From contig NC_054747.1 in assembly GCF_018143015.1 (NCBI RefSeq), positions 31,428,733 to 31,492,732 on the forward strand: a stretch of 64,000 nucleotides of DNA, read 5' to 3'. The position numbers and the translations under genes are program-made. The notes beneath the pieces are model-generated. The model did no database searches. It saw only the letters and a program-made list of their open reading frames with translations, and was not told where the DNA came from. Positions within the stretch are counted from its first letter, which is position 1; each line of letters begins with the position of its first letter. Below are positions 1,640 through 62,530 of the stretch, piece after piece. This DNA is from Lytechinus variegatus. Its lineage: Eukaryota > Echinodermata > Echinoidea > Temnopleuroida > Toxopneustidae.

Positions 1640-4600
1640 ATGGAAGGCAACTACCCTCCTGGTTTCTACTGCCCCGAAAGAGATCAACAAGACAGTCGAC
1701 AACATCAGCAACCTCAGCAACCGCCACCACCACATCAGCAACATGTCGCACCTTACCCCATTGACTTGCCTTACCACTCAACCTCGCATTCACAGCAACC
1801 TGATTTTGTCATGGATCAGCCCATTAGAGCGTTCCCTGCACCACATCCTACATCTATATTTCGATCAATGTTTCCCGGTAATCCCTTCTGATCAAACAAG
1901 TTGCTGATCTTTCTTTTTTTGTTTAAAGAGAAATTCCAGTTGTTGCAGTAAACACTGATTTCATGAGAAAGTCTGTAAAACAAGGCTTAATTTTCAGTAT
2001 ATCATCGAGGATCTAGATCTGGTACAGTTACATTAACTGAACTTTGTGAAATCTTGAAATCTACGCTGAAAAATGTTCACACAGAAGATCCCAACACAGA
2101 TAAGTGCATATGGGACAATGTATAATTATTGCTTAGAGCGTCGTGCCCAATGCTCTACCCGAATCCTGTGCTTATTTGCTGATTCCTCAGCAATTACACA
2201 ATTTCTTCCAGAATTCTTTGGCACATGCGTTTTATTTATACCAACAGACACTTTGGTGGTCATTTTTCATTGGATTCTATACGAACTCATTTTGATTACC
2301 AAAACTAGCATTTACCTTTAATGCAGGACTTTTTTAACTTCAGTTGTACATAATTAAAATAGGGCAATTTTTGTGATCTGGAATTGATGTCTCATGAAAG
2401 ATGTAATTTGTTTTTTCGGCAAGTACATGGCACATTTAGCAGTGGCATGATTCTTCTTTAAATGTACACTTATTTCATCTCAGACCCATTCCATCGGAAA
2501 TTCAAACTTTAGTGTGATGTACACGTACTTCTAACAGAGGTAAAACCAAAACTTGTACATGTATGCAAAAACCCTTAAATGAATTTGCACTATAATTGAG
2601 GATTTGAATTTCATCTTAAAGGTATAACTTGCTTTATTGTTATAACAACGTGTAAAAGAAAAGCATGAGGGACAGGGGAAAGAGAGTGATGTTCATGCAT
2701 CTTATAGTATATTTCTACAGATTTTTGAAATTTGATATTTCAAGGACAGTGCCATTGTTTAATAGGGTACATTATGTCAGCAAAAATGGCAAAAATGAAA
2801 AAGGGCATCAAATACATGTATTTCCAAAGCTTCATGTGGGGAGCATCAAGGCTTTTTCAGTGGGGCATCTGAGCCCACAGCCTAGACAACCTTGGATTAA
2901 TTTAAGATGTTTCCAAGCAAATTTTATGAAACTTATTTCTTTTTAAAACAGAGTCAACTCCAATGCTTCCAAGCCCGAATCTCATGCAGCCGACTCGAGA
3001 GCAGTCACCGTACAGTGCCAGAGGTCATGGGGTTAAATCTACTGCACTGAGCGGAGAGTTTGCCCCACATATCACAACTCCTGAACCAGCGATTATTAAC
3101 AATGCATCACAACCTCAAGGTAAGTAAGAAACTCACCTCAGAGCTATTCTGTGATTATTCCTCTATACCTCGAACTTGAATTGTTTTCTAAAATATCATC
3201 TCAAACCCTTTGTAAACTTTATTTTAAAAATGCATTAAATTCGGGTAGACTGCTATCAGAGAAGTAATAGAAGAATACTGGTTTCCCTTAAATATGGAAT
3301 TGTGTAGACTAAGCCATGGTCAAGTTCCTTGTCCATTTTTAAAATGATCATTATGTTGATGGCCTTGATCCCCCACCCTTCCATGAGGCCATCAAAATAA
3401 TGATCATTGTAAATAGCCTGGCCTGATTATGATGATCAATTTGATTAATAACAATTCATTTTTCCACCACTCTTCAATCAGGCGAGATACCTGCACCAGC
3501 ACCTCCCAAGAAAACCCAAGCTAAAGAGCAACGCAAGCAGGTTCCTGCATCCTCTAATAAACCAAGCACAAGTCCCCCGGACCAGAACGCCTCGGCCGCT
3601 GATCCTCAGCTTCTCTCAGCCCTCAATCTCAAAAAGAATGCAATCATATCGTCCAGTCAGGAGCTTCCAAAGGGACTCATATTCAAGGTGGCATCGGCGG
3701 ACAAAGTAGAGGGGGTGGTTGCTAGGGATACGATGGAGAAAGGGGTGGAATTTGGACCCTATACCGGGACGTTGTTGGATGAGGAGCAGGGCTGGTCCAA
3801 GGAGACATCGTGGGAGGTATGGTGTATCTCCGGATTATATTCAGTTGGTCTACAAGTACTTGATCTACATTTAAGATGTATTACCACATGGAATGAACCA
3901 TTTTGTCTATCATTTTGAGCTAATTGTCATTGATAAACATTTAAAAAAACATGGAGCATATATATATTCTTACTTGAATGAGGCATTTTCAACCTGAGAT
4001 TTAAGCATGAATTTTGTCCGTCTAAATTTATTAAATGTAAAATATGTCTCACTGGTCCAGCCAGGGCTCAGCTGTATTTCTCAGAATCCTATTAGCCATA
4101 CACCCCTCCATGAATTCTATCATTTTCCTATTGTGCCTCTGTATTTAATTATTGGTCCATTATACTCATCCTAGCTTTTAAATATCAAAGCCCAGCACAA
4201 GATTGTTAAAGTGTTATTTTTATGTACACTTCAATAGTTGACATCACAATTACTATGTGAGGATTGAATTTTTATTCGTGAATAACCTGAAATGTGAGGT
4301 ATCGACAGGCAAACGCATATACATGTATGAAATCACTACTAATAATAGTTTGAGTGGTACATTTAAGTGCTGTAAGTATTAATATCATTGACTTGAGTTG
4401 GTTTGGGGAGATACTGAACATTAGACCGTCTGCAATCATCATGACTGGATAATATGAGACTTCTTCAGGAAATATATATAGTATCTCCCTCGAGTTCATT
4501 CAATATTATAATAATAAAATAATTAACATTTATATAGCGCTTATCTCAAAGAATGTCTCTAAGCGCTTAAGGAAAATAAATAGAAAGACAAGAAATTATT

Positions 4601-7600
4601 ATTATGTACCAACAATTCTGAAAGTCATGCTTTGATTTAGAAACTTAAAACTAAGAATCAGGGCACAGGAAGGAATTGATGACAGGATTGATTTGATGAT
4701 TGTAATCTCTTAATCCATCATAAAAACTGGACTAATGATCAATTATTGAGTTTTGTGTCACCAGGCTCATGTTTTTTCACTGTGATTACAGATATGCAAT
4801 CCAGGGGGAGTCTTCTTGTATATCGACGGACGCAAGAACTGGATGTCACACATCAGATGCGCAAGGAGCGAAGAAGAACAGAACATGGAGGCGTATCAGC
4901 ATTATGGCAATATCTACTTCAGAAGCACAAAGGTCATTCAACCAGGAAGTGAACTGAAGGTTTTCTATGACGAGGAGTACAAGAAGTGTGTCGGGATGGA
5001 GGCGAGGTTTGAGGATCTCAAATTTGATCAAGGTATGTACGACAAGTTAACAACAGATTTAAAATATAAATCAAGAATTTGTCTTGGTTGGGCTGATAAA
5101 TCCTTGTATCTCAAGATTTAAATATTTTGATGACAGCTCACAATAAGATAGATTTTAGAGTTATAACATGTGTAGCAACCTTCTTTTGCCTCAAAGAGTT
5201 CTTCACAGGCAACAGGAGACTGTTTTCACACAATATGAGACTGCCACCATTGCTATATTTTCAAAAATACAGTCTATTCTAAGCTGCCCTCAATTTTTTT
5301 ATTATTTTCAGATAGAAGGTTTTATCAGCAGAACCAGGTTATACGATATCCCACAACTGGCATATTGGTTCAATTGGTGGAGCCCACTGGGCACACCTTT
5401 AAAAAATGGAAGGCCATGGGTTCTATTCCTGGGCCCTATCTTACAAAGAGTTACGATTGATTGGATCAATCATAACTCTATGGATATCCATCAGTGTCAG
5501 AATTTTTTCTCCAGAAAATTTGCAGAATGTCCTTTGTAAAAAAAGAGAAACACAGTGAATCTTCAAGAAAACAATAAAATGCATGAATATACACTTTAGA
5601 AAATTCTCTGAATAACCATGTATAACAGATGTTTACATTACTGGCAGTCCATAGTTGTGATTGATTGGATCAATCGTAACTCTTTGTAATGGCGCTGTCA
5701 CACCTTGGCGTTTTTGACAGCGTGTGCCCGACGTATCAAAATTTCCCTAAAACGTCGGCATGCGCTGAACTTCGATTTTTTTTTTCAATTCTAGGCGTAT
5801 ACTTAGCATATTCATAACGAGTTGGACGTATACATAACGTTTTAGTAACTTATATCGAACGCTTCGTGAACTTATAAGGAACGTATTCCAACGAATGCTT
5901 AGCGTATTGCTGGCGTACACAACTTATGCCCTACGATAGCCTAACTTATGCATAGCACGCGGCAGCGTATCACTGACGAACACGTGTCGTAGCCTATAAA
6001 AAGGCTGCCGCTCGACTATTCAAATCATAACCGCACGATACATCACCGTATCAACACCACAGCCATGCCGAAGAAAACTCCTGTGAACCCCACCTTTATA
6101 TATCAATTCCTATAAACGTTGTCAATACGCCATTATACGGTAGCTGTAAGTTATAAACACGTTCAGTAAGTTTTGTGGTCGTCCGGAGCACGTATTCATA
6201 CGTCAATATACGTTGGAGTAAAGTTACACATACGTTCAAAGCACGTTACTCATAGGTTAGAAGTTTTAGAGTACGCTGGACATTATCTCGACGTACATCG
6301 ACTTATGGATAACTTACGAGTAACATGTGCATGTCAACGTGTATCAACGATCGCGTTACTTGCCCACAACTTATGGCCGGCGTATGCGGGACTTATGAGC
6401 CATACGCTGGCATACGTCGAAAAATTTTGTGCTTGCACAAAATTTTTCGATGACCTCGCCGTATGACGACGTATACCAGCGTATTTTAGCGTACTCTTAA
6501 CGTATGCAAAACTTACCCGTAACGTATTCGACGTACGCCAGTGTATTCGCCAAATTCCTCATACGTCGGGCATACGCTGTCTAAAACGCCAAGGTGTGAC
6601 AGCGCCATGAGACGGGCCGCCAGTCTAGTCATCCCAAAGACTGACTTCAATTTCAGGGTCCCATGTCAAAGAATTTTTGCAACAACGAATGCACAATTCC
6701 ATAACAAGTCTACTATCAACTAATCAAATTATGTCAGTAGCATAACAATGTTATTAGAAATCTATTATGAAACAGGCCCCAGGCCAGGGGACTGCCAGTT
6801 GGAAGATTTCTTTAACAGTATGGTGGTACCCTTACTGCTTAATCATAGATATGTTCATAGGTAACTGGTTTCTTTTCTTATAAATCACTGATAATTCCTT
6901 TCTGACCTAAAGCATTGCAATTATAATGGATAATGGATATAATCACCATTTTGATTTTTGTTTTTCAATTTTATAAAAATTATCAATTTTTCATAGTGTT
7001 TGACACAGAATTTCTTACAATTTCTTGATTTCATTGATTTACTGGTGGGCAGGATAATTCACTTGTGACCGACAACCTCAGATGACACTATACTAGAAAA
7101 TAAAGTATACCTACTTCACATTCTTGGGGAACTCTCAGTGCACTTGCCTGTTAAGGTTCTTAATGGCAATAACAAGAGACCTTATAAACAAGTTTATAAG
7201 TTCATATTATCTCATCATTTTCAGATTCTGACAACCTTGGACGTAGAAATAAAAGTGGACCTACAATACATTCTTGGGGGAACTCTCAATACACTTGCCT
7301 GTTGAGATTTGTACTTAAAGTTTATTGTCATATTATCTCACTATTTTCAGATTCACAGAAGTTCCAATGTAGCCAGTGTGAGGAGCTGTTCACATCAACC
7401 AAACTAATCCTGAGACACATAAGATGTGAACACACCATTGGGAAACCAGATGAGATGATAGCTGTACTCACATGGAAGAAGAAAAAGAAGAAATCAATAG
7501 AAACGGACGTCAACGCCAAACAGCCTGTCCGAAAAGAGAAAGTGGATAGTGACAAGAAAGAGGTAGTCAGTGAAACGAAAGAGGTAGCTAAGGATGCAAA

Positions 7601-8714
7601 AGTGATAGAGTTTAAATGCGGAACCTGCGGAAAGGTCTTTCCTTCGTGTGGGAGATTGAAAGCTCATGAGGTGTTCCACGATGACTGTCAAGAGCATGCC
7701 TGTCCTGTGTGTGGTAAAGGGCAGGCCAATGCAAAGACTCTCGCGAATCACATGATCATACATGAACCAAAGTTCCAAGTGTGTAAGAAATGCAACCAGA
7801 AGTACAAGACAAGGGCATCCCTTGCGAAACATGAGATGGACGCCCATAGCTATCAATGCAGGTTTTGCTCTGAACGGTTCTTGAAGAAAGGTCATTGTCT
7901 GAAGCATGAGCAAACCCATCAAGCCTTCAAGCCACCCAAGACTTCGGCAAAGAAGGTGGCGCCGCCTGCAAAGGCAAAGGAATCACCTCCCAAGGTTCAT
8001 CAACCATCAGAACCATCTCCAGATGAACCTAAGGACATGCTTGGTAAAGGCACTCACTACTATCTCCAGCAGCGACCCTTCAAGTGCCGCTTTTGCCCCA
8101 AGAGGTACGTCTTACGTAAGAAGGTCAGTGAACATGAGCGGGAACACCACACAGGAGATGCAGCCTACAAATGCAGTTACTGCCCAAAGCTGTTCATCAG
8201 CGAGGCTAAGATGCTGGTCCATATTAATAGCCACGAGCAGAACCGCATCTATCGCTGCAAGCTCTGCCCTCGGACCTTCGCGTCGGAGAGCGCGCTGAAC
8301 AACCATCAAGATGAACACACCGGACTGAAACCGATCAAGTGTGAAATCTGCGGCAAAGGGTTCCGCGTCAAGAAGGCCGTTGCTGCGCATAGGAGACGCA
8401 TGCATCAGGAACGGCCGAAGCGGTTCTTCTGTTCCGTCTGTGACAAAGGGTTCTGTGATAAAGCCAATCTCATCAAACACGAGAGACGACACAAGGGCAT
8501 TAGACCCTATGTTTGTCTAGAATGCGGGAAAGCGTTCACAGGAAATGCCGCCCTCACAGCTCACAAGAAGGCATTGCATACTGAAAAAAAGGCCTTCTCT
8601 TGTGAGATTTGTAATAAAACATTCTCTTTGAACCAGCATTACACTTATCATATGTTCAAGCATAGAGTGAAAGAAGATAGTAGTCTATGTAACAACACTA
8701 GCAATACAAAGTAA
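1640..8714 (+). CDS. Gene A: PRDM-family PR/SET-domain protein with 12 C2H2 zinc fingers
   Basis: Coding exons 1640-1877, 2952-3119, 3482-3816, 4792-5032 and 7351-8714 join in phases 1, 1, 0, 1 into 781 aa with GT/AG borders throughout. The exon holding the ATG begins after an acceptor at 1622-1623, so a 5' untranslated exon is expected upstream. Residues 1-80 are Gln/His/Pro-rich (PDFVMDQ matches the PAFVLDQ of genes B and C). The PR domain is about residues 197-325: FGPYTG, the SWE exon border, GVFLYIDGRKNWM, EEEQNMEAYQ, PGSELKVFYDEEY. Twelve fingers follow, five and seven, separated by a linker with PKDMLGK. The PR domain resembles PRDM9/7, but no KRAB or SSXRD sequence is present. A nuclear DNA-binding regulator, possibly a histone methyltransferase, is inferred. 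Unlike B and C it has an extra intron before the PR domain. The stop lies inside a donor-like AAAGTAAGT, so a further 3' exon is conceivable. Confidence 0.92.
1927..2317. mobile_element. TTAA-flanked MITE in intron 1 of gene A
   Basis: TTAA occurs at 1923-1926 and 2318-2321. The termini are imperfect inverted repeats (AGAGAAATTCCAG against AAATGCTAGTTTTGG read inward from the other side). An inverted copy of the same 391-bp body lies at 20625-21017 with its own TTAA pair, so the ends are confirmed by comparison. No transposase is encoded. The short open frame inside is incidental. Confidence 0.8.
4500..4600. repeat. SINE/LINE 3'-tail-like remnant
   Basis: An (ATA)n run is followed by a segment with TATATAGCGCTTATCTCAAAG and GTCTCTAAGCGCTTA. 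The AGCGCTTA dyad next to a simple-repeat tail is a common ending of invertebrate SINEs. No body can be recognised, so this is a fragment in intron 3 of gene A. Confidence 0.35.
5431..6618. mobile_element. Hairpin MITE family G, copy 1, split by another element
   Basis: It starts GGGCCCTATCTTACAAAGAG and its second arm ends CGTAACTCTTTGTAA before the inserted element, then GACGGGCC after it. Copies 2 (11075-11340) and 3 (20278-20547) show the uninterrupted form, about 265 bp, whose two arms fold on each other around ATTGATCCAATCA-type sequence. Non-coding, inside intron 4 of gene A. Confidence 0.75.
5690..6607. mobile_element. TIR element (PIF/Harbinger-like MITE) inside hairpin copy 1
   Basis: About 45-bp terminal inverted repeats begin TGGCGCTGTCACACC and end GGTGTGACAGCGCCA. 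Comparison with the intact hairpin copies shows the target was TAA: left flank TAA, right flank TGA (one change). A 3-bp TWA target fits PIF/Harbinger; that assignment is inference. The 918-bp interior is unusually rich in CGTA/ACGT words and encodes no transposase. Confidence 0.7.
7085..7350 (+). repeat. Local tandem duplication carrying a second splice acceptor of gene A
   Basis: Two degenerate units share CATTCTTGGGG..AACTCTCA, CACTTGCCTGTT, TATTATCTCA and a terminal TTTTCAG|ATTC. The first unit provides an acceptor at 7223-7224 and the second the acceptor at 7349-7350 used in my model. From 7225 to 7350 is 126 nt, in frame and without a stop, so use of the upstream site would insert 42 residues between the PR domain and finger 1. 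Confidence 0.7.
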
Positions 8715-9001
8715 GTTTAAAATTTCAACTCTAGTTAACTGTTCATGGAATTTCCAGCATGTTTATTTCCAGAGCCATCTGAACTATTCCAGACTCTCTG
8801 TGTTTATTTTGAAAAACTTCTAAATGCTATAAACAGGCGGTTAGGGTTATCCAGCAGGAGTGAAAAAGTTGCGGAAAGTTTGCATTTCATATCTTTTCAT
8901 ATATGGAAAGGCTATCTATTTCATACATTTCCTTGAAATTATTTTGATAATGTTGGAAACTTTCAAGAAAGTGAAGATTATTCCCTTCTTTCTTGCCTCT
9001 G

Positions 9002-9007
9002 AATAAA
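9002..9007 (+). promoter_or_regulatory. Possible poly(A) signal of gene A
   Basis: AATAAA lies 288 bases after the stop codon, and a second one lies near 9174. No transcript evidence is available, so the choice between them is open. Confidence 0.35.
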
Positions 9008-9539
9008 TGTTTTCAGTTGATGTCACCCTTACATATACAAAATGATTTTTATTGTATATGTATTACTTTTTCTGAGTGAAAGGCATATATTTATGATTTT
9101 GCTCCTTTGACTTTTAAACGCTCAGGTTGACGTTTTTGTCCATCTTAAGATCTTGTATTCAATAGTGTAACTCAGAATAAATTGCATTATCTTGCCACTT
9201 TTCCTGACAAATCTAATTAGGTATTACAATGCTATTCTTGTCCTTGTCATGGAGGAAAACAAATAGTGACGTGCTAAGGGTAATAGCCCTCAAGTATTTA
9301 TTTATTTTTTTAAACCTGTAAAATAAGTTCTTGTATTGCTGTTGATCACGAGTTCAATTTAAAATTCCGTTTAAAATGAACATAAATTGAGTTGCGTTGT
9401 AAATCTAAATGCTCTAGGTAAACAATGAATCGCAATATGTTAAATGTTTTTAGTAATCATGTACAACTTGACTGACATTTAGCAATTGACTTTGAAATGC
9501 TCGTTGGAATGCTCCCCAGGGAGTGGAGAAAGGCATACA

Positions 9540-9685
9540 GTTGTATGCGGGCATGCCATGATCCAATGACCAGGATAATATATCTGTAAAGCGCTCAGAG
9601 ACGTTCCGTTGTATGATACGCTATGTAAAAGCAGATTATTATTTTTATTGTAATTATTATCATCATCATTATTATTATAAAGATC
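9540..9685 (+). mobile_element. SINE 3'-end remnant
   Basis: The stretch has GTAAAGCGCTCAGAGACGTT, then CGTTGTATGATACGCTATGT, then a run of ATT/ATC trinucleotides. This is the usual 3' end of tRNA-derived SINEs in marine invertebrates. The promoter-bearing 5' part is not recognisable. Confidence 0.5.
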
Positions 9686-14617: not shown

Positions 14618-14631
14618 TGACCCCTTCATCC

Positions 14632-17600
14632 ATGATGGATCTTAGCTACAGAGATCGTCAGGGTTACTACAATGAGCAAGATCCTCAGCAAAACATACGG
14701 CACCACCACCATCAGCCGCAACACCAGTTACAGCAGCCACAACTCCTACCACACTATGCTCAGCAACTCTCTCACCACCAGTCTCTGTTGCAGCCACACC
14801 TGCCGCAGCATCAGCTCCACCACTCTCAGCCGGCTTTTGTGCTGGATCAGTCGGACCAGCGGAGGGCCAGAGAGGAGTGCTCTAGTTCTAGGTTGGCTGG
14901 GCCTCCTAGTATGCAGCAGCTGATTTCAGGTCAGTTCCACTTGCAATTTGTTTAATGATTTTAATATCCTTTTCTCACAGGCAGAATTTTCCTTAACCCT
15001 GTACTATAGGTGGGACTAAGTGGCAAGTTAGCCTCACCTATAGTCCTGGGTAAGATTATCCCCTTTTCTTTTCTCGCTGAGTTTTTGCAAAATTAGGTGA
15101 ACCCCACCTATCGTACAGGTTTATTTGGCCCAGCAAAATAGGGTTAGCTGAGTAATTGAAGTGTTGAGACTGAGAGTCCAGGGTTAAGAATCACTGTGAG
15201 AAAAGAAACCCGGCCAAGCCAAGGACAGTGCTTGATGTATGCCCTAGTGGCAAGAGAGTCAGTGCTGATTTCCAATCAGAGATAATTGCTCATGAATGGC
15301 TTTCATATAGTCCAGGATTCCTGATTTTTTGTGTGAAAAATTGTCCTGTGACAAAAGGATAAACTGAAGTACAGGGTGGAGGATAATATTGGGTTAAAGA
15401 TTGTCTGGATTCAAGCAAACATTGTGAGACATGAGCATAACAGTTATATTCCCATTACCATGATTTAGTTTACAATAAATTAACTTCGTGTTACACCACA
15501 CTTTCGTTTAGGGTTGATTTTCATTTAATTTGCCAAGTACAAATTATTGTAATCCTGATGCAAAAGGATGCAAAAAATTAAATGAATTGTGTTGTGAAGG
15601 GCAAAGAATAAAAAGAGTTCATTGTATTCATGATTATCACCAGATTCTTCTTTCAAAACAAGTGGCACCTGTAAAGCTTTGCTAACCGCTAGAACTTAAT
15701 TTTGATTGAATAATCAATTGAATGATTAAAATTGCTTTTGTCATTTTTAGGTCATGGCACTCATAACCATCAGCCGCAGTATTCAGATCACACCCATCCT
15801 CTTCTTGCTCAGCTTGGTCTGACCTGTCAGTCCGGGTACCCACCACAGACCACCACCAACACCCAGTCCATGGTCGACACCACCCCAAACAACCAACCAT
15901 TCCTATCACCGGACTCCCCGTCACCACCACAGCCTCAGGACACCAGGGATGAACCCATGGTTTCTGAGGCGCCCCTGGTTGAACAACCCTCGGCGGAACC
16001 TCCCATGCCAGAACCGCTGCCAGAGCCACCCATGGAGGCAGAAGCCATGGCTGAATCTCGGAGTGCAGTTCCTGCTGCGATCACAAAGGTGCCACCGACA
16101 GCTGCAGATTCTGCTGAATCTGCAACAGAAGCTCAACCTGAAGCAGAAGATGCACCACAAGCTCTTGTTATACCAGAGGAAGATACTCCCTCGGATGCTC
16201 CCAGTACCAGCACCACCAAAGCCAAGGAGGACCCAAAGAAACCTGAACCAACTGGCCCAACCACCAGGTCCAGTAAGATCTGGAAGCCAGACTTGCCCCT
16301 TGGACTTTCTCTCAAGTACATGCAAGGTGGCAAGAAGATAGCAGGTGTCAGATCTGAGAAGCCTCTGGAGAAAGGTGCTACCTTTGGTCCATACAATGGA
16401 AAGCTGATTGCTGAACCTGTGGGTAGTCTCAAGGACTCAGCCTGGGAGGTATGTATTAGTGGACGGTAGCACTCCTGTCACAGTCATGAAATTAGTTTGT
16501 CACTTTCGACCATTTGACCCACACCATCTCCAGGAATAAAAACCATCAATGATGTGGAATGTTTTCATAGGGGTATCCTATAATCAGTACATTTTACATT
16601 CAGGCATCTTATTACCACAATAAAAATTAGAAAATTAACCCTAATAATACTGGGGGGGGAGCTGATTCAGGCCCCGCCCCCTCAACATTTTTTGCGATAA
16701 ATCCACTGCGCAAATTTTTTTTGACCGCGTCGCTTGATGACTGTTTGACTTGAAAGTAAAAAGTTTTTACGTTCAAGTCATGCCCAAGTTTTGAGACCAA
16801 AATTGTGATCCCAGGCTACGCGGTTCTAAAATAAGCAAAATTGCATAAGCAATGCTTCTGCATCAGGTGACAACATAATTTGGCCAAAGACTCAGACTGG
16901 CTTTGGAAGAATTTGGATAAAACTGCAAAACTGTCAAATATTGTAAGTTCAGGAGACGATTAAAATATGTTTGATATTTAAACTCAGAACTTCAAGGATT
17001 TATCAATCAGGAAGAAAAAATATGTTTTCTTTATGTGTCGTTGCAGTTGTGTTTGCGAGGGAAGGTTTTTGTGTACGTCGATGGTCAGAACAAGACTTTC
17101 AACAACTGGATGGCTTTCGTTGAGAGTGCCAACTCCGAGGAAGAACAGAACCTTGAAGCATTCCAATCCTACGGGGATATCTACTTCAGAACCACTAAGG
17201 TCGTTGAACCAGGAAGTGAACTGAAGGTGTTCTACAGTGACGAGTATGCTAATCATGTCGGCTTCAAGAAGAAACTCTGTGATCTGGTGTATAACAAAGG
17301 TATGAGATTCTGTAATTTAAACAATTATTTGTTTTGTGCATCACCCAGTATTTCACCGTAATCTGGCATGATTTTTACAGTGATTCAAAATTCGGGTTGA
17401 TGTGCAGTCATGTGAGATATCCCTGAAGTCTTAAAGTCATAAGGTTCTTTATCAGGCCACTCACATACTGATCTGCTCCTTGCAAATGCACTCTGATGGT
17501 CAATAAATATTCATGCATGCTCTCCAAGCAAAAAAGCAATCCTGGTAGGAACATTTTGTTGCCTTTTCTACTAAAACCTTACCTGTCTTGTCCCCATATC

Positions 17601-19309
17601 GACCACCACAAAAAGTGGCTCATGAACCATCCTCGTTACCCCATATCTCGTAAAAATCAGTAAAAATATTTCATTCAAAATTTTTCACAAAAATCCACGC
17701 AATTGAGATCCTTCAGTTTCAGAATGAATTTGCTAAATATTCTAAAACAATTGACATCCCCTCTTAAATTTTTTTTGTGATTGCGATTGGAGATATAGAT
17801 TATATGCTACACAAGAATGATCTGTCATTTTCTTTTCTCAATTATATTTCAGATACAAAGAGCTTCCCATGCAGTTCATGCTACCGAACCAATGCTTCCG
17901 CCAAGCGGATGTTGCGTCACATGAGAATCAACCATGACCCTGATAGGATTGGTGCGATGCGTCCGGTCATCACCTGGGAACCTTGTACCTCAACAGAGAA
18001 TGCGGAGAACGAGGATCCAGAGATGGCTTCAACTGCAAAGACAGTCAATGAACGGTTCATATGTACAATCTGCGGTAAGAACTTCCCTACGAGTCGGAGG
18101 CTCGCAGCCCACGAATCTACACATGCTCAAAGCGCAGACAAGACTTGTACGATTTGCGGTGAGACGCATACCAGTTCAAGAAGTCTTTCCAAGCATATGA
18201 GGACGCATAAGCCAAAGCCCTTTGAATGCCAGTCTTGCGGGAGCTCGTTTGCATCGCAGAACCATCTGACCCGTCACAAGAAACTGTCGCACACCTACAA
18301 CCATAGCTGCAGGGTGTGTGGCATACAGTTCATCAAGAAACGGGAGTGCAACAAACATGAGAAGACACATCCGGAATGGACCGCCTTCAAACCTCTCCGC
18401 AAGAAGGCGAGAAAAACGAGGAGGACCAAGAAAGTGCAAAATAATGAGATTGAGGAAGAAGTCCCAGCTGAGGAGGAGGAACCGGAGCCTGAGGAAGAGA
18501 TCGAGGAGCCAAATCCAAACTTGCCAAAGGATATGCTTGGGAAGCGAATCAATTACTACGACAAACCAAGACCATATAAATGCCGTTTTTGCCCCAAAAG
18601 ATACCTCTCAAGGAACAAGAAACTTGCTCATGAAGCTGAAGCACATACGAAGGAATGCGAGTTTAAATGTAAGCACTGCCCTGCTGTATTTGCCACCGAG
18701 TTCAGGTACGTGGAACACTCCAAGCGCCACATACAGAATCGGCCGTTCCAATGCCAGTTCTGTCCAAACTCATTTGCCTCAGAGAATGCACTGAAGAACC
18801 ACATGGGTGAACACACAGGCCTGAAGCCTGTCAAGTGTGAGGTATGCGGGAAGGGCTTCCGGACGCGGCACATAATGAACGCTCACAAGCGACGCATGCA
18901 CAAAGTCAGGCAGATGCGCTTCTCCTGCTCCTACTGCAACAAACCTTTCGCCGACAAGGGCAACCTTGTCAAACATGAGCGCCGCCATAAAGGCATCCGA
19001 CCGTACGTCTGCCTGACCTGCGGGAGGGGCTTTGCTACCAACTACAGCTTAACGCAACACTCCTACACGCACACCAAAGAGAAGAAATTTGGTTGTCCGC
19101 AGTGTGACAAGCGCTTCACCCTCAATGAACATTTGACAAACCACATCTATAAGGTGCATACTGTAAATCAGAAAGAACAGCCGCAGAGTATTCATTCCTT
19201 GACGATTGGTCAACGGAATCCTATGCCTCCACAGCCAATTCAACATCCAAATCAACATCCAACTCTACCATCTACAACTCAACACTACCAGATGCCACAT
19301 CCACAGTGA
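14632..19309 (+). CDS. Gene B: PRDM-family PR/SET-domain protein with 12 C2H2 zinc fingers
   Basis: Coding exons 14632-14929, 15751-16448, 17047-17299 and 17853-19309 join in phases 1, 0, 1 to give 901 aa. The start is the ATG at 14632 (or 14635, M-M-D), matching the MDPGYRERQGYY start of gene C. Residues 1-100 are Gln/His-rich; about 100-275 is a Pro/Glu/Ala-rich linker. The PR domain spans about 281-415 with FGPYNG, VYVDGQNK, NNWM, SEEEQNLEAFQ and PGSELKVFYSDEY. Finger 1 follows at about 423, then four fingers, an acidic linker with PKDMLGKRINYY, and seven fingers joined by linkers such as TGLKP, KGIRP and TKEKK. The tail is Gln/Pro/His-rich. The fingers differ from one another and are not a PRDM9-like tandem minisatellite. 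A nuclear DNA-binding regulator is inferred. It converges on gene C, and part of its PR exon looks gene-converted with C. Confidence 0.93.
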
Positions 19310-23966: not shown

Positions 23967-24420
23967 TTAACCATGGCAACTACCATAATCTTGCGCACTG
24001 CAGCAAAAGCGCGCTTTAGCAGTGGACATTTTTCATTATATCAGGTAGATTAAGCGTAATTTATACAGGAAATCTACATAAATCACGGATAATCCGAATT
24101 GAATAGAGTGTCTCTTTCACCGAATGCGAAGTGTCGCCCCATTGCACCAACATGAGTATTCGCCATTTGTGTTGTACAACGCCTATGAATTTAGCGGAAA
24201 TATGACAAAAAATTGAGTTTTTCCTTGCATTAATCTATGAAAAAGGAGCAAAAATATTGAAAGCGAAAAGCAAAATCCCACAAGCGTGCATGATATCAAG
24301 GGCCAATAGTGTAGGGCAGTATTGTAATTTATCCTGCAGGCCATACGTTCATGTATATTGCAACTTCATTTTTTACTGAGCGCAATGAACTGAATCAATT
24401 GTAAGCCATGCAATGGTATA

Positions 24421-24847
24421 TTTGGACGGTGTGAAATGTTGCACGTTCAGCTTCTCATTTGCTTGTGTACAACCAGCTACATTTGGACGGTGTGAAACGT
24501 TGCACGTTCAGCTTCTCATTTGCTTGTGTACAACCAGCTACATTTGGACGGTGTGAAACGTTGCACGTTCAGCTTCTCATTTGCTTGTGTACAACCAGCT
24601 ACATTTGGACGTTGTGAAATGTTGCACGTTCAGCTTCTCATTTGCTTGTGTACAACCAGCTACATTTGGACGGTGTGAAACGTTGCACGTTCAGCTTCTC
24701 ATTTGCTTGTGTACAACCAGCTACATTTGGATGGTGTGAAATGTTGCACGTTCAGCTTCTCATTTGCTTGTGTACAACCAGCTACATTTGGACGGTGTGA
24801 AACGTTGCACGTTCAGCTTCTCATTTGCTTGTGTACAATTAGCTAAG
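24421..24847 (+). repeat. 61-bp minisatellite, seven units
   Basis: TTTGGACGG starts recur at 24421, 24482, 24543, 24604, 24665, 24726 and 24787, an exact 61-bp period. Units are nearly identical and contain GTTGCACGTTCAGCTTCTC. The few unit differences fall mostly at ACG/ATG and GACGG/GATGG positions, that is CpG sites. It is not a CRISPR array because there are no variable spacers. Confidence 0.95.
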
Positions 24848-25556: not shown

Positions 25557-25560
25557 TTAA

Positions 25561-26116: not shown

Positions 26117-26120
26117 TTGA

Positions 26121-27290: not shown

Positions 27291-27297
27291 ATTGATC

Positions 27298-27520
27298 ATA
27301 AGAAGAAGAATGAAAAGGAGAAGAAGAAGGGGAAGGAGAAGAAGGGGTAGAAATGGAAGAAGATGGACAAGAAGAAGAGGAAGATGAAGGAGAAACAGAG
27401 GAGGAAGAAGTAATAAAAACAAAAATAAATGTAGCAAATGAAAAAAAAGAGAAGTAGGAGGAGAAGAGGAAGAAGAAATAATAAAAATCAAAATGAATTT
27501 AGCAAATGAAAAAAAAAATC
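27298..27520 (+). repeat. Polypurine tract (GAA/AGG-rich)
   Basis: About 200 bases that are almost purely A and G on this strand, such as GAAGAAGGGGAAGGAGAAG. Open frames through it are artefacts. It directly follows the SINE's simple-repeat tail. Confidence 0.85.
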
Positions 27521-27819
27521 ATACTTAAAATTAGTTCTAACACTCCTATCAAAATGTTCAAAAGATGCCCTTGCATCAATATGAAAGATGATTAGACCTC
27601 AGCTGTTCTTCCACATCTCACATGAAGGTAAATCACTATCTTTAGGCTGATCAAGGAAAGTAAGTGAGCAAGAATCGTTCTTGAGAACCTTTTAATACTC
27701 GTTGAATCACCATGTTTAACCCTCTCATATTGAGCAATATACCCAAAGTTGTGATAAAAAAGATAAGCAAATTGTAAGTGGATTGTACATAGGGTTATGT
27801 AAAACAATGAAAATAAGAA

Positions 27820-28222
27820 GATAATGGTGGTGGTGCTGATAATGATGATGGTAGTGGTGTTGGTATGATGGTGGAGGTGGTGATGATAGTAGTGGTGGTG
27901 ATGATGATGATGGTGGAGGTGATGATAATGATGATGGTAGTGGTGTTGGTGATGATGGTGGAGGTGATAATGATATTGATGATAGTAGTGGTGGTGATGA
28001 TGATGGTGGAGGTGATGATAATGATGGTAGTGGTGATGATGATGGTAGTGGTGGTGATGATGGTGGAGGTGGTGATGATAGTAGTGGTGATGATGATGAT
28101 GGTGGAGGTGATGATGGTAGTGGTGGTGATGACGGTGGAGGTGGTGATGATAGTAGTGGTGATGATGATGGAGGTGATGATGGTAGTGGTGGTGATGATG
28201 GTGGTGATGATCGATGATGATG
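27820..28222 (+). repeat. GAT/GGT trinucleotide-derived microsatellite
   Basis: About 400 bases of GATGATGGTGGTGATGATAG-type sequence in higher-order blocks around GGTGGAGGTG. It yields long open frames on both strands (Met/Val on one, Ser/Pro/His/Thr on the other), which are not genes. Confidence 0.9.
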
Positions 28223-28239
28223 TTGACGATGACACACCT

Positions 28240-28535
28240 CTCTCCCTCACTCCTCTCTCTCTCACTCTTCTCTATTTCCCACTCTTTTCCTCTTTCTCCA
28301 ATCTCTCTCTTTCATTCTCCATCTCCAATCTCTTTCTCCATTTCTTTCTCCATCTCTCTCTCCATCTCCAATCTTTCTTCATCTCCAATCTCTTTCTTTC
28401 TTTCTCCATCTCCAATCTTTCTTTGTTCATCTCTAATCTCTTTCTTTCTCCATCTCCAATCTCTCTTTTTCTTTCTCCAATCTCTCTCTTTCTTTCTTTC
28501 TCTATGTCCAATCTATCTCTTTCTTTCTCCAAACC
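28240..28535 (+). repeat. Polypyrimidine minisatellite
   Basis: Irregular repeats of CTCCATCTCCAATCTCTTTC, about 10-20 bp per unit, nearly free of purines apart from the A of CCA/CAAT. It follows the GAT tract within 20 bp. Confidence 0.85.
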
Positions 28536-28583
28536 CAATATGAAGTCACCGTGATTATAGTGATTACCAATATCTACAACTTT

Positions 28584-28656
28584 AAAAATCCACAACTTTC
28601 TTACTGTTCAAACTTCTATGGTAGAACTTTGAACAGTAAGAAAGTTGTGGATTTTT
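28584..28656. repeat. Short perfect-arm hairpin
   Basis: AAAAATCCACAACTTTCTTA...CAAA is followed after about 15 bases by its reverse complement (TTTGAACAGTAAGAAAGTTG and onward). The arms are about 29 bp. Confidence 0.8.
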
Positions 28657-28902
28657 ACCTATCAGTTTGTTGGATTTTTCTGTTTCCTCTACACACAAGT
28701 TTTTATTTGGGTTGGATTCCCTTTAATAAAGGAGAGCCATGTTTTTATCCTGAGGGAGAACTATCATTACTGGTCTGATATCATGCTGTAAAGAAATACA
28801 TAAAAAAGGGGTTGTTCTTCGAAGGCAGAGCAAAGTATCGCATACAGTGAAAAGGGTATCAATTTGTCAAAATCATGAGAAAATGGAATACCTTCCAACC
28901 AG

Positions 28903-29041
28903 GGGCAGATCCAGCACTTTCAAATGGGGGGCACACTTCTGTTTTAATGGCATTTTTACATTACAAATTTCAATTTTGATTTACAAAAGGGGGGGGGCAC
29001 AAGTAGGATGTACCCCCCCCCCTGGATATGCCACTGCTTTC
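28903..29041. mobile_element. Short MITE-like repeat with GGGGCAGATCCAG end
   Basis: ACCAGGGGCAGATCCAGCAC at one end and CCCCTGGATATGCCACTG at the other form inverted ends around G- and C-runs. It resembles the repeat ends near 42.9, 48.0 and 55.4 kb (GGGGCGGATCCAG). Confidence 0.5.
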
Positions 29042-29390
29042 AACAGCCTGATATGCTCAAACATGTAGAAGGGGTATTTATATTTTCACACTATCAAGAA
29101 AATGAGATATTTCAAGTTTTCTAAGGTGGAAGGATAATTTCCCACTTGCAATGACAGTAAACATTTCAGTATTCCATTTCAATTGTAATTGTGTTTATGA
29201 TGGATTTTGTCTACTGTTTTGTTGGAAATGAGAAAAAATAAAACCGAACTGAAACTGAAACCCTCCCGAGCCGAATGGAGCAAAGAGGAAGCGGGGAATC
29301 CTGACCTTGCATCCAAGAGTTCAAGGTTCAAGCCTCAGGACACAAACTCATTTTCCCATAGCATCAATCTACATGTTGCTACTCTAAACC

Positions 29391-29555
29391 CAGGGGCCCG
29401 TTTCATACAAAGGACTTGCAACTGTTGTAACTTTGCCATAATGGCAACTGCCATGGTAACAGGGCTCAGCAGCCAATCAGAATCAAGGTTTCCATGGTAG
29501 TTGCCATAATGGCAAAGTTACAACAGTTGCAAGTCCTTTATGAAATGAGCCCCAG
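29391..29555. repeat. 165-bp hairpin MITE
   Basis: CAGGGGCCCGTTTCATACAA...GGACTTGCAACTGTTGTAAC is mirrored by GTTACAACAGTTGCAAGTCC...ATGAAATGAGCCCCAG. The arms are about 60 bp with a short middle, and no coding sequence. Confidence 0.8.
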
Positions 29556-29789
29556 GTCTGTTACAAGATTTGAAATGAAATAAATACAGAGATCTATACT
29601 CAAGTTGTTGCATGAATAAAAACAAGTTAGTTTTTTATCTTGGCCTTTGTTACACAGACATTGACAGCATGAATATTACAATCATAAAATTCTACAAGTT
29701 AAAGTAGAATAAAGATGGCAAATGACACTAGAATCTTTGTACAGAACAGAACATATCAACAGGACATTATATAAAAACAAAAACAGATA

Positions 29790-30227
29790 CAGTGGTGCTC
29801 AAAGCTTAGTGACCCCCTGCAGAAAATGGACATATCTACAGTGTTCAAGTTCTGCCATGTTTTACATACATGTATATATCTAATTGCATACTTTAATGTT
29901 CACCTGAAAATGACCTTTGACCTTACCATTTGACCTCCGCCTACACCAAACTCGATAGACTTCTTCGCTATACCATACTCAACCTTCATGCCAAATTTGA
30001 AGACGACTGGAGAAGAAATGCAGCTGATAGAGCGCTCACAAGGAAATCTCTGTGGCAGAAGCACGACGAGGCCAAATCCATAGTATCCTCCGAACTCTGT
30101 ACGGGGGATACTATTAAAATTTGTTTCTCTGGGCATGTCGAATGTCAAAGTGTTGTTGTTTCCATTCAATACTCAGCATAAAGGAGTGCATTTTGTGGTG
30201 GGATTCACTAACTTTTGTGCACAACTG
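29790..30227. mobile_element. Tc1/mariner-like MITE, 438 bp
   Basis: TA occurs on both sides (29788-29789, 30228-30229). Ends CAGTGGTGCTCAAAGCTTAG and CTAACTTTTGTGCACAACTG are inverted repeats. TA targets and CAGT ends fit Tc1/mariner. No transposase is present; the interior is a CCTTTGACC-type sequence. Confidence 0.75.
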
Positions 30228-30610
30228 TAACTTAGAATCATCTCAGGTGAGAATACAATCAATTGTTGAGTTTCTCAATCAAATTACAGTACACATAATA
30301 TAAATTATGTAGTCATTACTGACATTACATGATTGTAAAGTAGGATATAATTTTCCTGGTTTAGCAGGACAATTTGCTATGTACCCTCACATGCCATACA
30401 TATATAATGTATGTATACTGTCCAATGTAAACAATCTATGACATATAAAGAAGTGAGTTTCTATTGACTTTGTGGTTCATTATTTGAGAAAGTGGGCAGC
30501 GTACAACTCCCTTTTAAACCAAAATTACCGCCACATGAGACGGATTTAGTTCAAAATATTGCAAAAATTCATCAAAGAAAGATCATTAAGCAAAAATCAA
30601 GAATATATAA

Positions 30611-30982
30611 AGCCCAGCGCACACTATGCAATGCGATTGCACCGAGATTCCATCGCAACAAAATGACAGAGTGTGCGGCAACATACAACGTGCTCCAACT
30701 ACGACCCACTCTGTTGCAGTAGCATCGCAGACCAAACCTTAGACGTTTGACATGTCAAATCTTTCAGCGATTTTTCTATGATTTTGCTAGTTTCAGCCAA
30801 TCCGATTTGCCTTAGAAGGTGACGTCATGGCCACTTCGCTGCGCTGCCGAAGCGCTGCCAACATACGCATAAAAGAGGCGCCATGGAGACAATTAACTGT
30901 CATTGTTACATAGCAAATTGCAGAGCTGTTGCAATATGTGCACTAGCTCAGTGCAATAGTGTCGCATAGTGTCCACTGGGCT
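30611..30982. mobile_element. TIR MITE, 372 bp
   Basis: AGCCCAGCGCACACTATGCA and its inverted partner CATAGTGTCCACTGGGCT define the ends. No convincing target duplication is visible. Non-coding. Confidence 0.6.
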
Positions 30983-31021
30983 TGCAGCATGTGAGTGCAT
31001 TTTGTATGAATACTACTCAAT

Positions 31022-31335
31022 GGCTCGTATTCTGAAGTCGGGGTTTAACTTAGACCATGGTCTAACTCTGTGCTAAAATTATTGTAAGCCAAATGTTTCA
31101 AAATTTTGTTTACAGTGAATGCTTCTCATGCTTACTTTGCTCTTTACTACTTCTTAAATAGTGAAGGCAATTGTCATACTTATCCTTCCCAGGCAGTTAA
31201 TAATGCTTTGGGAGTCAAATGAGCTGATACATTGAACCTCTACTGTTAAGAGATTTATGTAGCAACTGGCTTTCCATAGTGAAACCACAACTTCAAACTA
31301 GAGTTTAAATCAAACCCAACTTCGGAATGCGGGCC
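31022..31335. mobile_element. TIR MITE, 314 bp, more complete copy
   Basis: GGCTCGTATTCTGAAGTCGG and CCCAACTTCGGAATGCGGGCC are inverted ends. The body matches 1240-1538 in reverse orientation. Confidence 0.75.
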
Positions 31336-32145
31336 AATATGTCTTTAAGGTATCTTGTCAAAAGTCAGAGCCTTTATCTTTCCTGTAGTAAACCTAGCAA
31401 GTCGTAAAGTGGTTCCTTATGTAGACGGAATTATACAGAATACTGGTGAAATATTTAAATTAGTCTCTATAAAGATCAACTTTAATTCTGGGCGGAGGGG
31501 AGTGGTATTTCATAAAGCATCTTGTCAGTGATTTTCAAAGAATTATTTGCTCTGAGCCAATCAGATGCAAGGATTTCAGTAGCTTTTAACATTAGCCAGT
31601 GAAAAATCACTGAGTTTCTTTCATGAAAGGCTCCCCTGGTCATATGAGAATGAATTATGAAATACCAAAGAACTACTAAGCAATTGGATAATATTAATCA
31701 GAAACAGAGACATAATTGAGGGAAAGCAGACAAATTACTGATCTGGGTGCACTTTCTTGGAAATGATTATATGAGGAAGCCAAAGAATGGCAAGATAGGG
31801 CACTGTTTCCTACAACTAGAGAGAAGGGTAAAAAAACCGGATTGTTTGACGCAACACGAACAACCCTAATGAAACCATCCGACTTTTTTGTCTTCTTTTA
31901 ATTAAGATTTGCAGTAACACATGTAAATAAAATGGACCTTAATTTTCATACTTTATAAATTTGCAATAGTTTGGAATAGATTGTTAACATTTGCGTTACT
32001 GGGTCTGGCTCAATTAGCTAATGGATTCATTCATTCTTGATAGTGATTTTACAAATCTTGACAGAGCAACAATGAGGTAAATGAACATAGAGAATATCTT
32101 CTCCACCATAACAAACGATACTTCTCAGTGCTCATCATAAAGAAG
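31336..32145. other. Downstream region of gene C
   Basis: No coding sequence. An ATTAAA on the minus strand at 31897-31902 is a possible weak poly(A) signal for gene C. I found no nearer AATAAA. Confidence 0.35.
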
Positions 32146-35100
32146 CTAGAGCTGCATTTGTGGCTGCATTGGAACATTGACAAGTTGTGTGGCAGGAATG
32201 GTGGCTGCATTCTGAGTTGCAGGAGCTTGGGTTTTCTGTGGTTTCCCATGCGACGTATGTTCCTTGTACATATGGTTCGTAAGATGCTGGTTAAGAGTGA
32301 ATTTCTGGTCACAATGTGGGCACTGGAAGGGCCTCTCTTTGGTGTGGGTGTAGTTATGGGAGATTAAGCAGTAGTTGCTGGTGAAACCTTGACCGCAGAT
32401 GAGACAGACGTAAGGTCGGATGCCCTTGTGGCGCCGTTCGTGCTTGATGAGGTTTCCTTTGTCAGAGAAGGGTTTGTTGCAGTAGGAGCAGGCGAATCGC
32501 ATCTGTTGGACCTTGTGCATTCTACGTTTATGGGCGGTCATGAAGTGACGCGTCCGGAAACCTTTCCCGCAGACGTCGCACTTGACGGGTTTGAGACCAG
32601 TGTGCTCTCCTTGGTGGTTCTTGAGGGCGCTCTCGGATGCGAAGGTCATGGGACAGAGGGCACAGTGAAATGGACGGTTCTCGATGTGCCGCTTCACGTG
32701 CTCTACATATCTAATCTCAGTTGCGAATACTGATGGGCAGTGCGTGCATTTGAAGCGGCATTTCTTGGTGTGTCTCTCAGCTTCATGATCAAGCTTAGCC
32801 TTCTTTGAGAGATACCGCTTTGGACAAAATTGGCATTTATAAGGTCTTGGTCGATCATAATAATTAACTCTTTTCCCAAGCATGTCTTTTGGTAGGTTTG
32901 GATTGTTCTCTTCTTCTTCCTCCTCCTCTTGAGCCTCAACTACCTCATTTGCTTCATCAGTGTTCAGGAAATCAAACTGCCCTTCTTCAACATCATCATC
33001 TTCATCGCTTTGAACCACTTTTTTCAATCTTGACCGTTTTTCAGGTTTAATTTTCACAGACCTGAAGTTCCTCCAATCTGGGTGAATCTTTTCGTGCCTA
33101 TTACACTCACGCTTCTTCACAAACTGCATCCCACACACCCGGCACTTGTGGTTGAACGAGTGCGAGAGCCTCTCATGGCGGCTCAGCATATTCCTTGTTG
33201 TGAAGGCGTTCCCGCAGGATTGGCACTTGTAAGGTTTGGCCTTGTGGGTCACCATGTGCTTGGCAAGAGTGTTGGAGTTGGTAAAGCTTTCGCCGCATAT
33301 ATTGCAAATGTGTTCCTCGCTGTATTCGTGGAAGGTTTCATGGGCAGCAAGCCTTCCACGGGTCGGGAAGTTCTTGCCACAAGTCGTGCAGATAAACCTC
33401 TCTTCGACCATACTGGAACTGTTTGTGGTCAACACCTGGGTCTTCTTGCTGGTTGGCGAAGAAGACTTGACCGGTTTAGCAATGACAGGTTTCTCATTCT
33501 CAGCATTCTCTGAATTGGTACGTGACTGCCACGTCAACACAGGACGTAAATCATTGGCCCTGTCAGGGTCATGACTGATCTTCAAGTGCCTCAGAAGTCG
33601 TTTAGCTGAAGGGTAAGATTGGTCGCAGGAACCGCAAGGAAACATCTGAGAATCTGTGGAAAGTGTGAAGAAATCTCCATTTTAAATCTCTAATAGTTCT
33701 ACATTTATTTTCTTATGGCAATGTTTTCAAATTCAGCGCTTAACTCAAAGTAGTCGCTGTGAGAAATTACAGAAATTTTATGAAATCGAGGTCAACTGTT
33801 ACAAAAACATCACAGAACATGATCTTGTAAATTTTGGAATACATACAGCAAAATTGTAAAAACAGATCAGCATATAAGAATCACATGCTTCATTAACTGA
33901 CCTTAACAGTCCTGACGGTGACACGAGTGATGAACTTTCAAATGAGGCAAACCTCCCTGTCATCGTTCATTCTTTCATATTATCAAAAGCTCCCTTTTAT
34001 AAATACAGTACAAATAGATAGCAACAACCAGCAACGTGAAACACAAAACACCAGAAACTCTTAAGAAACCTACCACTTTTTGACTGCAGATCACTCAGTT
34101 TCTTCTTGAAGCCGACATGATTAGCATACTCGTCACTGTAGAACACCTTCAGCTCACTTCCTGGTTCAACAACCTTAGTGGTTCTAAAGTAGATATCCCC
34201 GTAGGATTGGAATGCTTCAAGGTTCTGTTCTTCCTCGGAGTTGGCACTCTCAACGAAAGCCATCCAGTTGTTGTGACTTTTGTTCTGACCATCGACGTAG
34301 AAGAATACCTTCCCCCGCATGCAAAGCTGAAATGACAAAGGGTTTGATATTATAAAATATATTACGACAATCTATACTACAATGACCTCATTCAATTCAT
34401 CTTCAACCAGCTTCTTGATTCGTTGCAGTTTTCATTCACTTTAAACATATATATGTATGTCATCCACTGAAAATTGTAATGTAATCTCTGAAAATAAAAC
34501 GGCTGATATGGTGGGTAAGGTTCTGACAAATTGTGATTCTGCCACAATCCCAAAAAAGTATCAAGTTACAAACCTCCCAAGAGGAGTCCTTTTGGAATCC
34601 CACTGCCTCATCGACCAGCTTGCCATTGAAAGGACCAAATCTTGCACCCTTCTCCAAAGACCGCTCTGAACGTAGCCCACTGATCTTCCCATCCAGAGAG
34701 AACTTCAGAGACAGACCAATCGGGATATCAGGTTTCCATATATCCTGGTCCACAACTTGCAGATCCCGCCGTAACAAGTTCTGTGGAGCAGTCAGAACGT
34801 TCTGTTGCGTCTCCGCGAGGGCTAGGCGCACTGCCCGTTTCTTGGGAGTGTCCATGTCTGCACTGCTTGCCGAAGTCAAGACTGGCTCACACTGGGGTTC
34901 TGGGAGTGTGACAACGCGGGCATTCTGCGGTTCAGAGACGGTGACAACACGGACATTCTCGTTAAGGACCATGCTACCAACTGGTTCCTCCACCACTTCT
35001 TCTTCCACATCATGTTCGTCTGACGAATCCTGCTGTGTGGGGGATTGAGGGGACATGAAAGCCTGGCTGCCACTTGCCGGAGCATCTACAATCGACTGAG

Positions 35101-35795
35101 TTGATGTGGTTGGTGGGACATAGCTTGCCTGGCTGGTTAGATGGGATAGCTGAGTATGACTGTGTTCAGTGAAGTGGGGATGGCTGCGATGCATACTACT
35201 CGCAAGCACCTGTCCACTACCTGCAAGAAAGAAATACACCATGAACACGAGGGCAATATCCTTTAGTCAGGGTCACCAACTATTTGTTATAAATCTGGGG
35301 TGATGTAACAAGTTTTTTTTTTTTTGTATGGTCAGCCCATTGGACTGCTCGAGACCCAAGGCATGCATATGAGTCTAGTGTTAGTGTGCAAGTTATCGAG
35401 TCAGTCTACAGTACAAATGTTCAAATGATATGATTCTACAATCAGTAAATATAGAGGAAGGACAAAATATGAATTACACCAGATCTATACTCACTGGGCA
35501 ACATTTGTTGTAAGACAGCCGATCCTGTCAGCCTGCCCGCAAAGTCTTCACGACCTCTGACCTGATCACCCTGGTCAAGAACAAAGGCTGGCTGTGTGTG
35601 ATGCAACTGATGCTGCGGTGGCAGGTGTGGCTGCAACAGGGACTGGTGGTGGGGCAACTGGTGGGCATAATGCGGCAGGAGTTGTGGCTGTTGTTGTTGC
35701 AACTGATGCTGTTGCTGTTGGTGGTGGCGGATATCCTGTTGTGGGTCCTGATCCCTGCCGTAGTAGCCCTGTCTCTCTCTGTAACCTGGATCCAT
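32146..35795 (-). CDS. Gene C: PRDM-family PR/SET-domain protein with 12 C2H2 zinc fingers
   Basis: On the minus strand, coding exons 35795-35495, 35220-34574, 34326-34074 and 33653-32146 join in phases 1, 0, 1 into 902 aa, one residue longer than gene B. The ATG exon begins after an acceptor at 35825-35824, leaving a 28-nt leader (35823-35796). The N-terminus (MDPGYRERQGYY, then Gln/His-rich, ending PAFVLDQ) parallels gene B. The PR domain is about residues 266-398: FGPFNGK (Phe where A and B have Tyr), SSWE at the exon border, FYVDGQNK, NNWM, EEEQNLEAFQ, PGSELKVFYSDEY. Finger 1 sits just after it, then four more, a strongly acidic linker with PKDMLGKRVNYY, and seven fingers. The ZF exon acceptor is at 33655-33654; the AG eight bases later would break frame. 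Introns are short (274, 247, 420 bp). No KRAB. A nuclear DNA-binding regulator is inferred. Confidence 0.93.
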
Positions 35796-62526: not shown

Positions 62527-62530
62527 TTAA

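Follow-up and report, generated by a model that had tools for sequence, protein, structure and literature searches.

A probably old PRDM-type gene family on one chromosome of Lytechinus variegatus, with signs of gene conversion in a PR-domain exon

Three neighbouring genes in a 64,000-nucleotide stretch of DNA from the sea urchin Lytechinus variegatus (contig NC_054747.1, labelled C8 throughout, positions 31428733-31492732; the whole stretch is called the window) each join a PR domain to twelve zinc fingers in the order 1+4+7. They raise the question of whether this combination marks a separate PRDM subfamily and, if so, how large and how old that subfamily is, how its parts have changed, and what its proteins might do.

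The three genes of the window

The genes, G1 to G3, lie in the first part of the window, and each is divided into four coding exons, A to D (window coordinates, here and in the lists below).

1640..8714, forward strand: G1, exons A-D at 1640-1877, 3482-3816, 4792-5032 and 7351-8714; 725 aa with a Gln/Pro-rich N-terminus, PR domain and 1+4+7 fingers
14632..19309, forward strand: G2, exons A-D at 14632-14929, 15751-16448, 17047-17299 and 17853-19309; 901 aa with a Gln/His-rich N-terminus, PR domain and 1+4+7 fingers
32146..35795, reverse strand: G3, exons A-D at 35495-35795, 34574-35220, 34074-34326 and 32146-33653; 902 aa, laid out as G2 and inverted

In the models that we rebuilt from the sequence, all nine introns are bounded by GT..AG, with phases 1, 0 and 1 in each gene, and every frame is open from its ATG to a single stop, which confirms the exon joins of the first-pass annotation. 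C-terminal to the PR domain, each gene carries 12 strict C2H2 motifs in the order 1+4+7. Pfam, to which G1 and G2 were submitted, reports the PR domain PF21549 (E 4e-32 in G1 and 6e-31 in G2) as well as C2H2 fingers in both proteins, and the PR exon of G3 was matched at 88 bits when the genome was searched with the PR domain. The motifs EEEQN..AFQ and PG.EL.V.Y are present in all three genes, and a phmmer search of the PDB with the G2 PR domain places PRDM9 at the top (E 5e-23), followed by PRDM1 (E 1e-18). By their PR domain and C-terminal C2H2 fingers, G1, G2 and G3 are members of the PRDM family; the earlier claim of three PRDM-type genes with a shared layout is therefore borne out by the gene models, by Pfam for G1 and G2, and by the 12 motifs in each gene. 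Chance likeness to PRDM genes was considered and rejected, given a PR domain E value of about 1e-31 and 12 strict fingers per gene. Neither KRAB nor SSXRD was detected by Pfam in G1 or G2, in keeping with the first reading that KRAB is missing. Genome searches with KRAB and SSXRD also returned nothing, and are uninformative because their controls were equally empty.

The N-termini are less uniform than the rest of the layout, as seen from the first coding exon.

14632..14929, forward strand: exon A of G2, Gln/His-rich N-terminus with a start of the form M[DE]..Y

Within the first 99 aa, G2 has 21 Q, 12 H and 9 P and G3 has 24 Q, 11 H and 9 P, so that the description of a Gln/His-rich start holds for these two, but G1, with 15 Q, 6 H and 21 P, is Gln/Pro-rich. 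Exon A of G1 resembles that of G2 only weakly (identity 0.30), and a genome search with exon A of G3 matched G3 and G2 only. Starts of the M[DE]..Y type occur in G1, G2 and G3 and, in an upstream scan of ten other loci, before L016/L017, L027, L028 and L031; in the same scan no related exon A start was found upstream of L019, L021, L024 and L025, and exon B alone was visible for L026.

Several other elements were recorded in the window.

7200-7353: two 3' splice-site stretches, nearly identical, ahead of exon D of G1; this small duplication may give the intron an alternative acceptor
about 14950-15340: dispersed repeat in intron 1 of G2, found again on many contigs, where the longer matches have an identity of 72-78%
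24420-24845: a 61-bp unit repeated seven times, its copies 96% alike; a second full array was not found in the genome, which holds 11 short likenesses of 45-76 bp alone
49222-51174: foldback element of about 1.95 kb, with nested inverted repeats of 155 nt at 92% and 151 nt at 87%, its ends being arrays of a 16-bp unit
51738-52196, 56685-58115, 59200-60882 and 60806-61882, all reverse strand: retrotransposon remains, probably non-LTR, with reverse transcriptase in three of the ORFs and endonuclease in the fourth
62498-63106: a fifth ORF, for which no match was found

Extent and placement of the family

The genome (869.6 Mb in 33 contigs) contains two two-part matches to the Pfam Bindin family (best E 4e-66), which points to an echinoderm and most likely a sea urchin. 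It was searched with the last seven G2 fingers and their preceding linker, and the best 150 of 1124 candidates were scored. Among these, 26 seven-finger blocks match G2 at 191.8 bits or above, all of them on C8, and the next listed match reaches 132.1 bits. A search with the PR domain, in which all 80 candidates were scored and the exons counted by hand, gives 31 related second PR exons (exon C) on C8, a count that leaves aside four C8 matches of other PRDM types at 17.36, 17.41, 10.64 and 13.11 Mb. These 31 comprise 17 distinct members that were placed in a tree, 6 mirrored or near-identical copies that were left out of it, and 8 that are known from search matches alone (2.94, 2.96, 3.85, 3.86, 21.93, 21.95, 29.56 and 31.33 Mb). 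The three window genes form the end of an array of 11 family loci at 31.17-31.47 Mb, ten on the forward strand and G3 alone on the reverse; the cluster of three described at first is thus real but belongs to something larger. Further PR loci, seen as search matches, lie on C1, C14 (31.49 Mb), C15, C17 and C19. Because of these matches and of the 8 unread exons among the 31 on C8, it is mainly the finger-block search that supports a family confined to C8, and a stray member may lie elsewhere. In the literature that was searched, as far as its text was available, we found no description of such a family on C8; the survey of Vervoort et al. 2016, reportedly a broad one of animal Prdm genes, falls outside that scope.

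Mirrored inverted pairs of PR-gene loci are found on C8 at 2.94-2.98 and 3.83-3.86 Mb and at 9.56-10.89 and 12.84-14.37 Mb, and mirrored PR loci likewise occur on C4, C6 and C14. The main segments of the aligned C8 and C4 pairs are mostly 92-99% identical, with lower stretches present and one L024/L025 segment at 86%. Such pairs suggest either haplotypes that escaped purging and were placed head to head, or genuine palindromes. Could many of the copies then be assembly artefacts of the former kind, and the family in truth small? The mirrored arrangement on C8 and the similar loci on the three other contigs would fit, but G2 has no second copy in the genome, no two finger blocks of the window array have the same score, about 23 loci still remain on C8 once six mirrored pairs and one triple of near-identical copies are merged, and the median exon D pS is 0.80 over the 91 pairs of 14 genes compared. 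We consider a small, artefactually inflated family highly improbable, and return to a family of about 23 loci.

Whether these PR domains are enzymes bears on both placement and function. Three sites were located by counting along PDB chain 4ijd, the first residue of which we take to be PRDM9 residue 195, and a tyrosine falls at each of the three. They are the catalytic tyrosines Tyr276, Tyr341 and Tyr357 of PRDM9, as given in the available text of PMC5519329. The residues aligned with them are Y/F/Y in G1 and G2 and F/F/Y in G3, the last two sites lying in the second PR exon.

17047..17299, forward strand: PR exon C of G2, with Phe aligned to Tyr341 and Tyr aligned to Tyr357

Among the distinct members read, the Tyr341 site is Phe in 14 of 17 and Tyr in the other three (L019, L024 and L046), the Tyr357 site is Tyr in all 17, and the Tyr276 site, read in nine members, is Tyr in five and Phe in four; L019 keeps all three tyrosines. 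From these residues we infer that the methyltransferase activity of the family's PR domain is altered or weakened. Some members may be active enzymes, since three of the 17 retain Tyr341 and L019 retains all three tyrosines. Moreover, single substitutions need not abolish methyltransferase activity, according to the accessible part of Baker et al. 2017 (PMC5519329).

A second difference precedes the PR domain. No zinc knuckle was seen in exon B of G1, G2, G3, L016, L019, L024, L026, L028 and L031 (nine reads), nor in the frame of L018. It was seen in L009, L010, L011, L014 and L015. In PRDM9, a zinc knuckle typically stands before the PR domain, and one finger follows soon after it. L009 is another PR gene of C8, and the other four lie on C6.

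C8:17355300-17365200: L009, which has a zinc knuckle, all three tyrosines and a finger frame holding 17 strict motifs
C6, 15.0 Mb (L010), 21.2 Mb (L014), 26.27 Mb (L011) and 27.74 Mb (L015): PRDM9-like loci with zinc knuckle, three tyrosines, a proximal finger and self-similar finger arrays

The first-pass annotation had named a PR-domain phylogeny as the means of placing the genes, and we built two trees. The exon C tree holds 34 PR second halves (17 of the family, 8 PDB references and 9 other PR genes of this genome), and the full PR tree uses both PR halves in 19 rows, 8 of them from the family; PRDM3/16, 5, 6, 8, 11, 13 and 15 are outside both. In the exon C tree the 17 distinct members form one clade (98/98), apart from PRDM1, 4, 9 and 10 and with no sampled vertebrate PRDM reference inside it, and the Blimp1-like, PRDM10-like and PRDM9-like genes of the same genome fall outside. 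For example, the genome's Blimp-like gene, L012, is grouped with PRDM1 (98/93), and PRDM4, PRDM10 and L022 make up a branch of their own (94/83). The 8 family rows of the full PR tree likewise form one clade (99/99), which the PRDM9-like rows adjoin at weak support (50/87). AU tests do not reject the joining of the family with PRDM9 (p 0.42), with PRDM9 and the genome's PRDM9-like genes (p 0.44), or with PRDM1 and L012 (p 0.23). The family is distinct, and either PRDM9 or PRDM1 is compatible with the AU tests as its nearest PRDM group. The proposal of a separate PRDM subfamily thus stands insofar as the members form a single clade, but the family may yet belong with PRDM9, since the joinings with PRDM9 and with PRDM1 both survive the test.

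One reading of these results is that the C8 genes are PRDM9 orthologues which have diverged and lost KRAB and SSXRD, as teleost PRDM9-beta has. PRDM9 is the best PDB match to the G2 PR domain, the PR domain is followed by one finger, an arrangement shared with PRDM9, the AU test and the weak adjacency in the full PR tree allow the joining, and the loss of N-terminal domains together with a Y341F-type change parallels swordtail PRDM9-beta, as far as the available text of PMC5519329 describes it. However, both trees hold PRDM9 and the genome's own PRDM9-like genes outside the family clade, the zinc knuckle is absent from the nine family exons and present in L009 and the C6 loci, and the 4+7 fingers lack self-similarity. 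On balance we judge orthology to PRDM9 unlikely, though the best placed of the alternatives weighed here, and continue with a distinct PRDM-type family.

Tempo of change in the PR exon and the fingers

Exons A, B and D of G2 and G3 differ at a pS of 0.77-0.81, and the 91 pairs behind the exon D median given above include one younger pair at 0.33 (the genes at 31.202 and 31.175 Mb). A recent tandem burst is rejected, since most silent sites outside exon C have reached saturation, that one pair apart. The tandem expansion suggested at first therefore fits the array, with its ten of 11 members on one strand, but most of the divergence is old.

Exon C departs from this pattern. The G2/G3 pair has an overall exon C pS of 0.22 beside the saturated exons A, B and D, and a 92% DNA match over 251 bp, returned by a genome search with G2, further supports the G2 side of the following tract.

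17100..17276, forward strand: G2 side of a probable conversion tract in exon C, 3 differences in 177 bp against G3
34097..34273, reverse strand: G3 side of the same probable tract, 3 differences in 177 bp against G2

Part of the likeness of the G2 and G3 PR domains looks like recent gene conversion. For the same 91 pairs, which are not independent, we set the identical codons of exon C against those of exon D, with Bonferroni correction. The exon C excess is significant in 6 of the 91 pairs, all within the array. One of them is G2/G3, and the other five come from the four genes at 31.175, 31.202, 31.218 and 31.387 Mb, which make six pairs in all. The mean excess is 0.10 in 45 array pairs versus 0.03 in 46 others (one-sided p 0.013, the pairs again not being independent). 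We believe that gene conversion likely homogenises PR exon C among array neighbours while the finger exons diverge. The low silent divergence of exon C could also come in part from constraint on the DNA itself, a weaker alternative because such constraint should act on non-array pairs too, which show little excess.

The fingers of the family are distinct from one another rather than self-similar, and the spacing of their blocks is fixed. In the seven-finger block of 15 members, mean entropy is 1.92 at DNA-contact positions versus 1.41 at the others. One might read this as a genome-defence system in which the fingers track transposons, by analogy with tetrapod KRAB zinc-finger proteins. The family is large and clustered, its contacts vary more than other finger positions (a variability equalled by 57 of 1001 four-position sets), and dN at contacts exceeds dN elsewhere in six of seven pairs, by a factor of two to three in two cases (0.14 vs 0.06 and 0.49 vs 0.17). 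Yet the most variable single finger position is a non-contact one, contacts hardly vary in the third of the last seven fingers, contact dN is below dS wherever dS is computable, and the seventh pair, L041/L047, lacks the contact excess. In addition, six near-identical family comparisons, counted without L022/L023 (PRDM10-like) and L011/L015 (C6), show no nonsynonymous change at finger-contact sites, at dN/dS of 0.03-0.27 over the finger exon, from small counts. A transposon-tracking role of this kind seems quite improbable, and sequence-specific regulation remains our preferred reading. A PRDM9-type hotspot setter as the main reading was likewise rejected, because the fingers are not self-similar and fast change was not seen in them; a role of the C8 family in recombination hotspots is unlikely.

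The four PRDM9-like loci of C6 are of another kind. Their arrays hold 6-9 fingers with a mean nucleotide identity of 0.82-0.86, and contact residues differ in 0.66-0.88 of comparisons versus 0.18-0.24 elsewhere. L011 has nine fingers and L015 seven, and this pair shows 11.5 nonsynonymous changes per 74 contact sites versus 1.5 synonymous per 22, on an uncertain array alignment. L010, L011, L014 and L015 carry the PRDM9 signature. Oliver et al. 2009 (PMC2779102), in the text available, already cite a transcript of Prdm9 from the germ-line tissue of a sea urchin. A slow PR family and a fast PRDM9-like type are therefore comparable side by side in one genome, and a sea urchin could serve as a test case for PRDM9-directed recombination.

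Proposed function and comparison with known systems

Taken together, G1, G2 and G3 are probably members of an old PRDM-type subfamily of about 23 loci on one chromosome, acting as sequence-specific regulators, an interpretation made at the level of sequence. In such proteins the 4- and 7-finger blocks are predicted to bind fixed DNA sites, the PR domain would serve mainly as a docking module for chromatin cofactors, its methyltransferase activity being altered or weakened, and the Gln-rich region would form a flexible interaction segment; conversion would keep PR exon C alike among neighbours as the fingers specialise. More speculatively, and with little confidence in the whole, the set may be modular: about 23 chromosome-confined PR-zinc-finger regulators that share a converted PR docking exon, have finger targets of their own, form the PR counterpart of KRAB-zinc-finger clusters and coexist with fast PRDM9-like genes. 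What looks new is the apparent homogenisation of exon C by conversion within the array, which, together with PRDM9-like genes alongside it, would be of specialist interest. Tetrapods built large clusters of zinc-finger regulators with KRAB. A PR family expanded on one echinoderm chromosome, with an apparently converted effector exon, would, if true, represent a separate instance that is maintained in a way of its own.

The closest comparisons are with PRDM9 itself. Like PRDM9/PRDM7 of vertebrates, the C8 family has the EEEQN..AFQ and PG.EL.V.Y motifs and one finger soon after the PR domain; unlike them, it lacks the zinc knuckle (nine exons) and a Pfam KRAB (G1 and G2), has Phe at the Tyr341 site in most members, and combines non-repetitive 4+7 fingers with a Gln-rich start. 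Teleost PRDM9-beta, as the accessible sections of PMC5519329 describe it, is without KRAB and SSXRD, has slowly evolving fingers and carries catalytic substitutions including Y341F, and the C8 family resembles it in giving no Pfam match to KRAB or SSXRD in G1 and G2, in its slow fingers and in the Y341F-type change. In contrast, the C8 family comprises many genes on one chromosome, begins with a Gln-rich exon and has 1+4+7 fingers, and it retains Tyr357 in every member read where swordtail PRDM9-beta has Y357P (PMC5519329, same sections). With the PRDM9-like loci of C6, the family has in common the single proximal finger and a PR domain that seems to be divided at the same Trp-Glu boundary, whereas the knuckle, all three tyrosines, self-similar arrays and hypervariable contacts are found in the C6 loci.

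Finally, tetrapod KRAB zinc-finger clusters are large C2H2 families whose members have one effector in common while their fingers diverge. The C8 family is likewise large and clustered, with a shared effector and fingers that diverge, but it has a PR domain in place of KRAB, silent sites mostly saturated between its paralogues, and an effector exon that is apparently homogenised by conversion.
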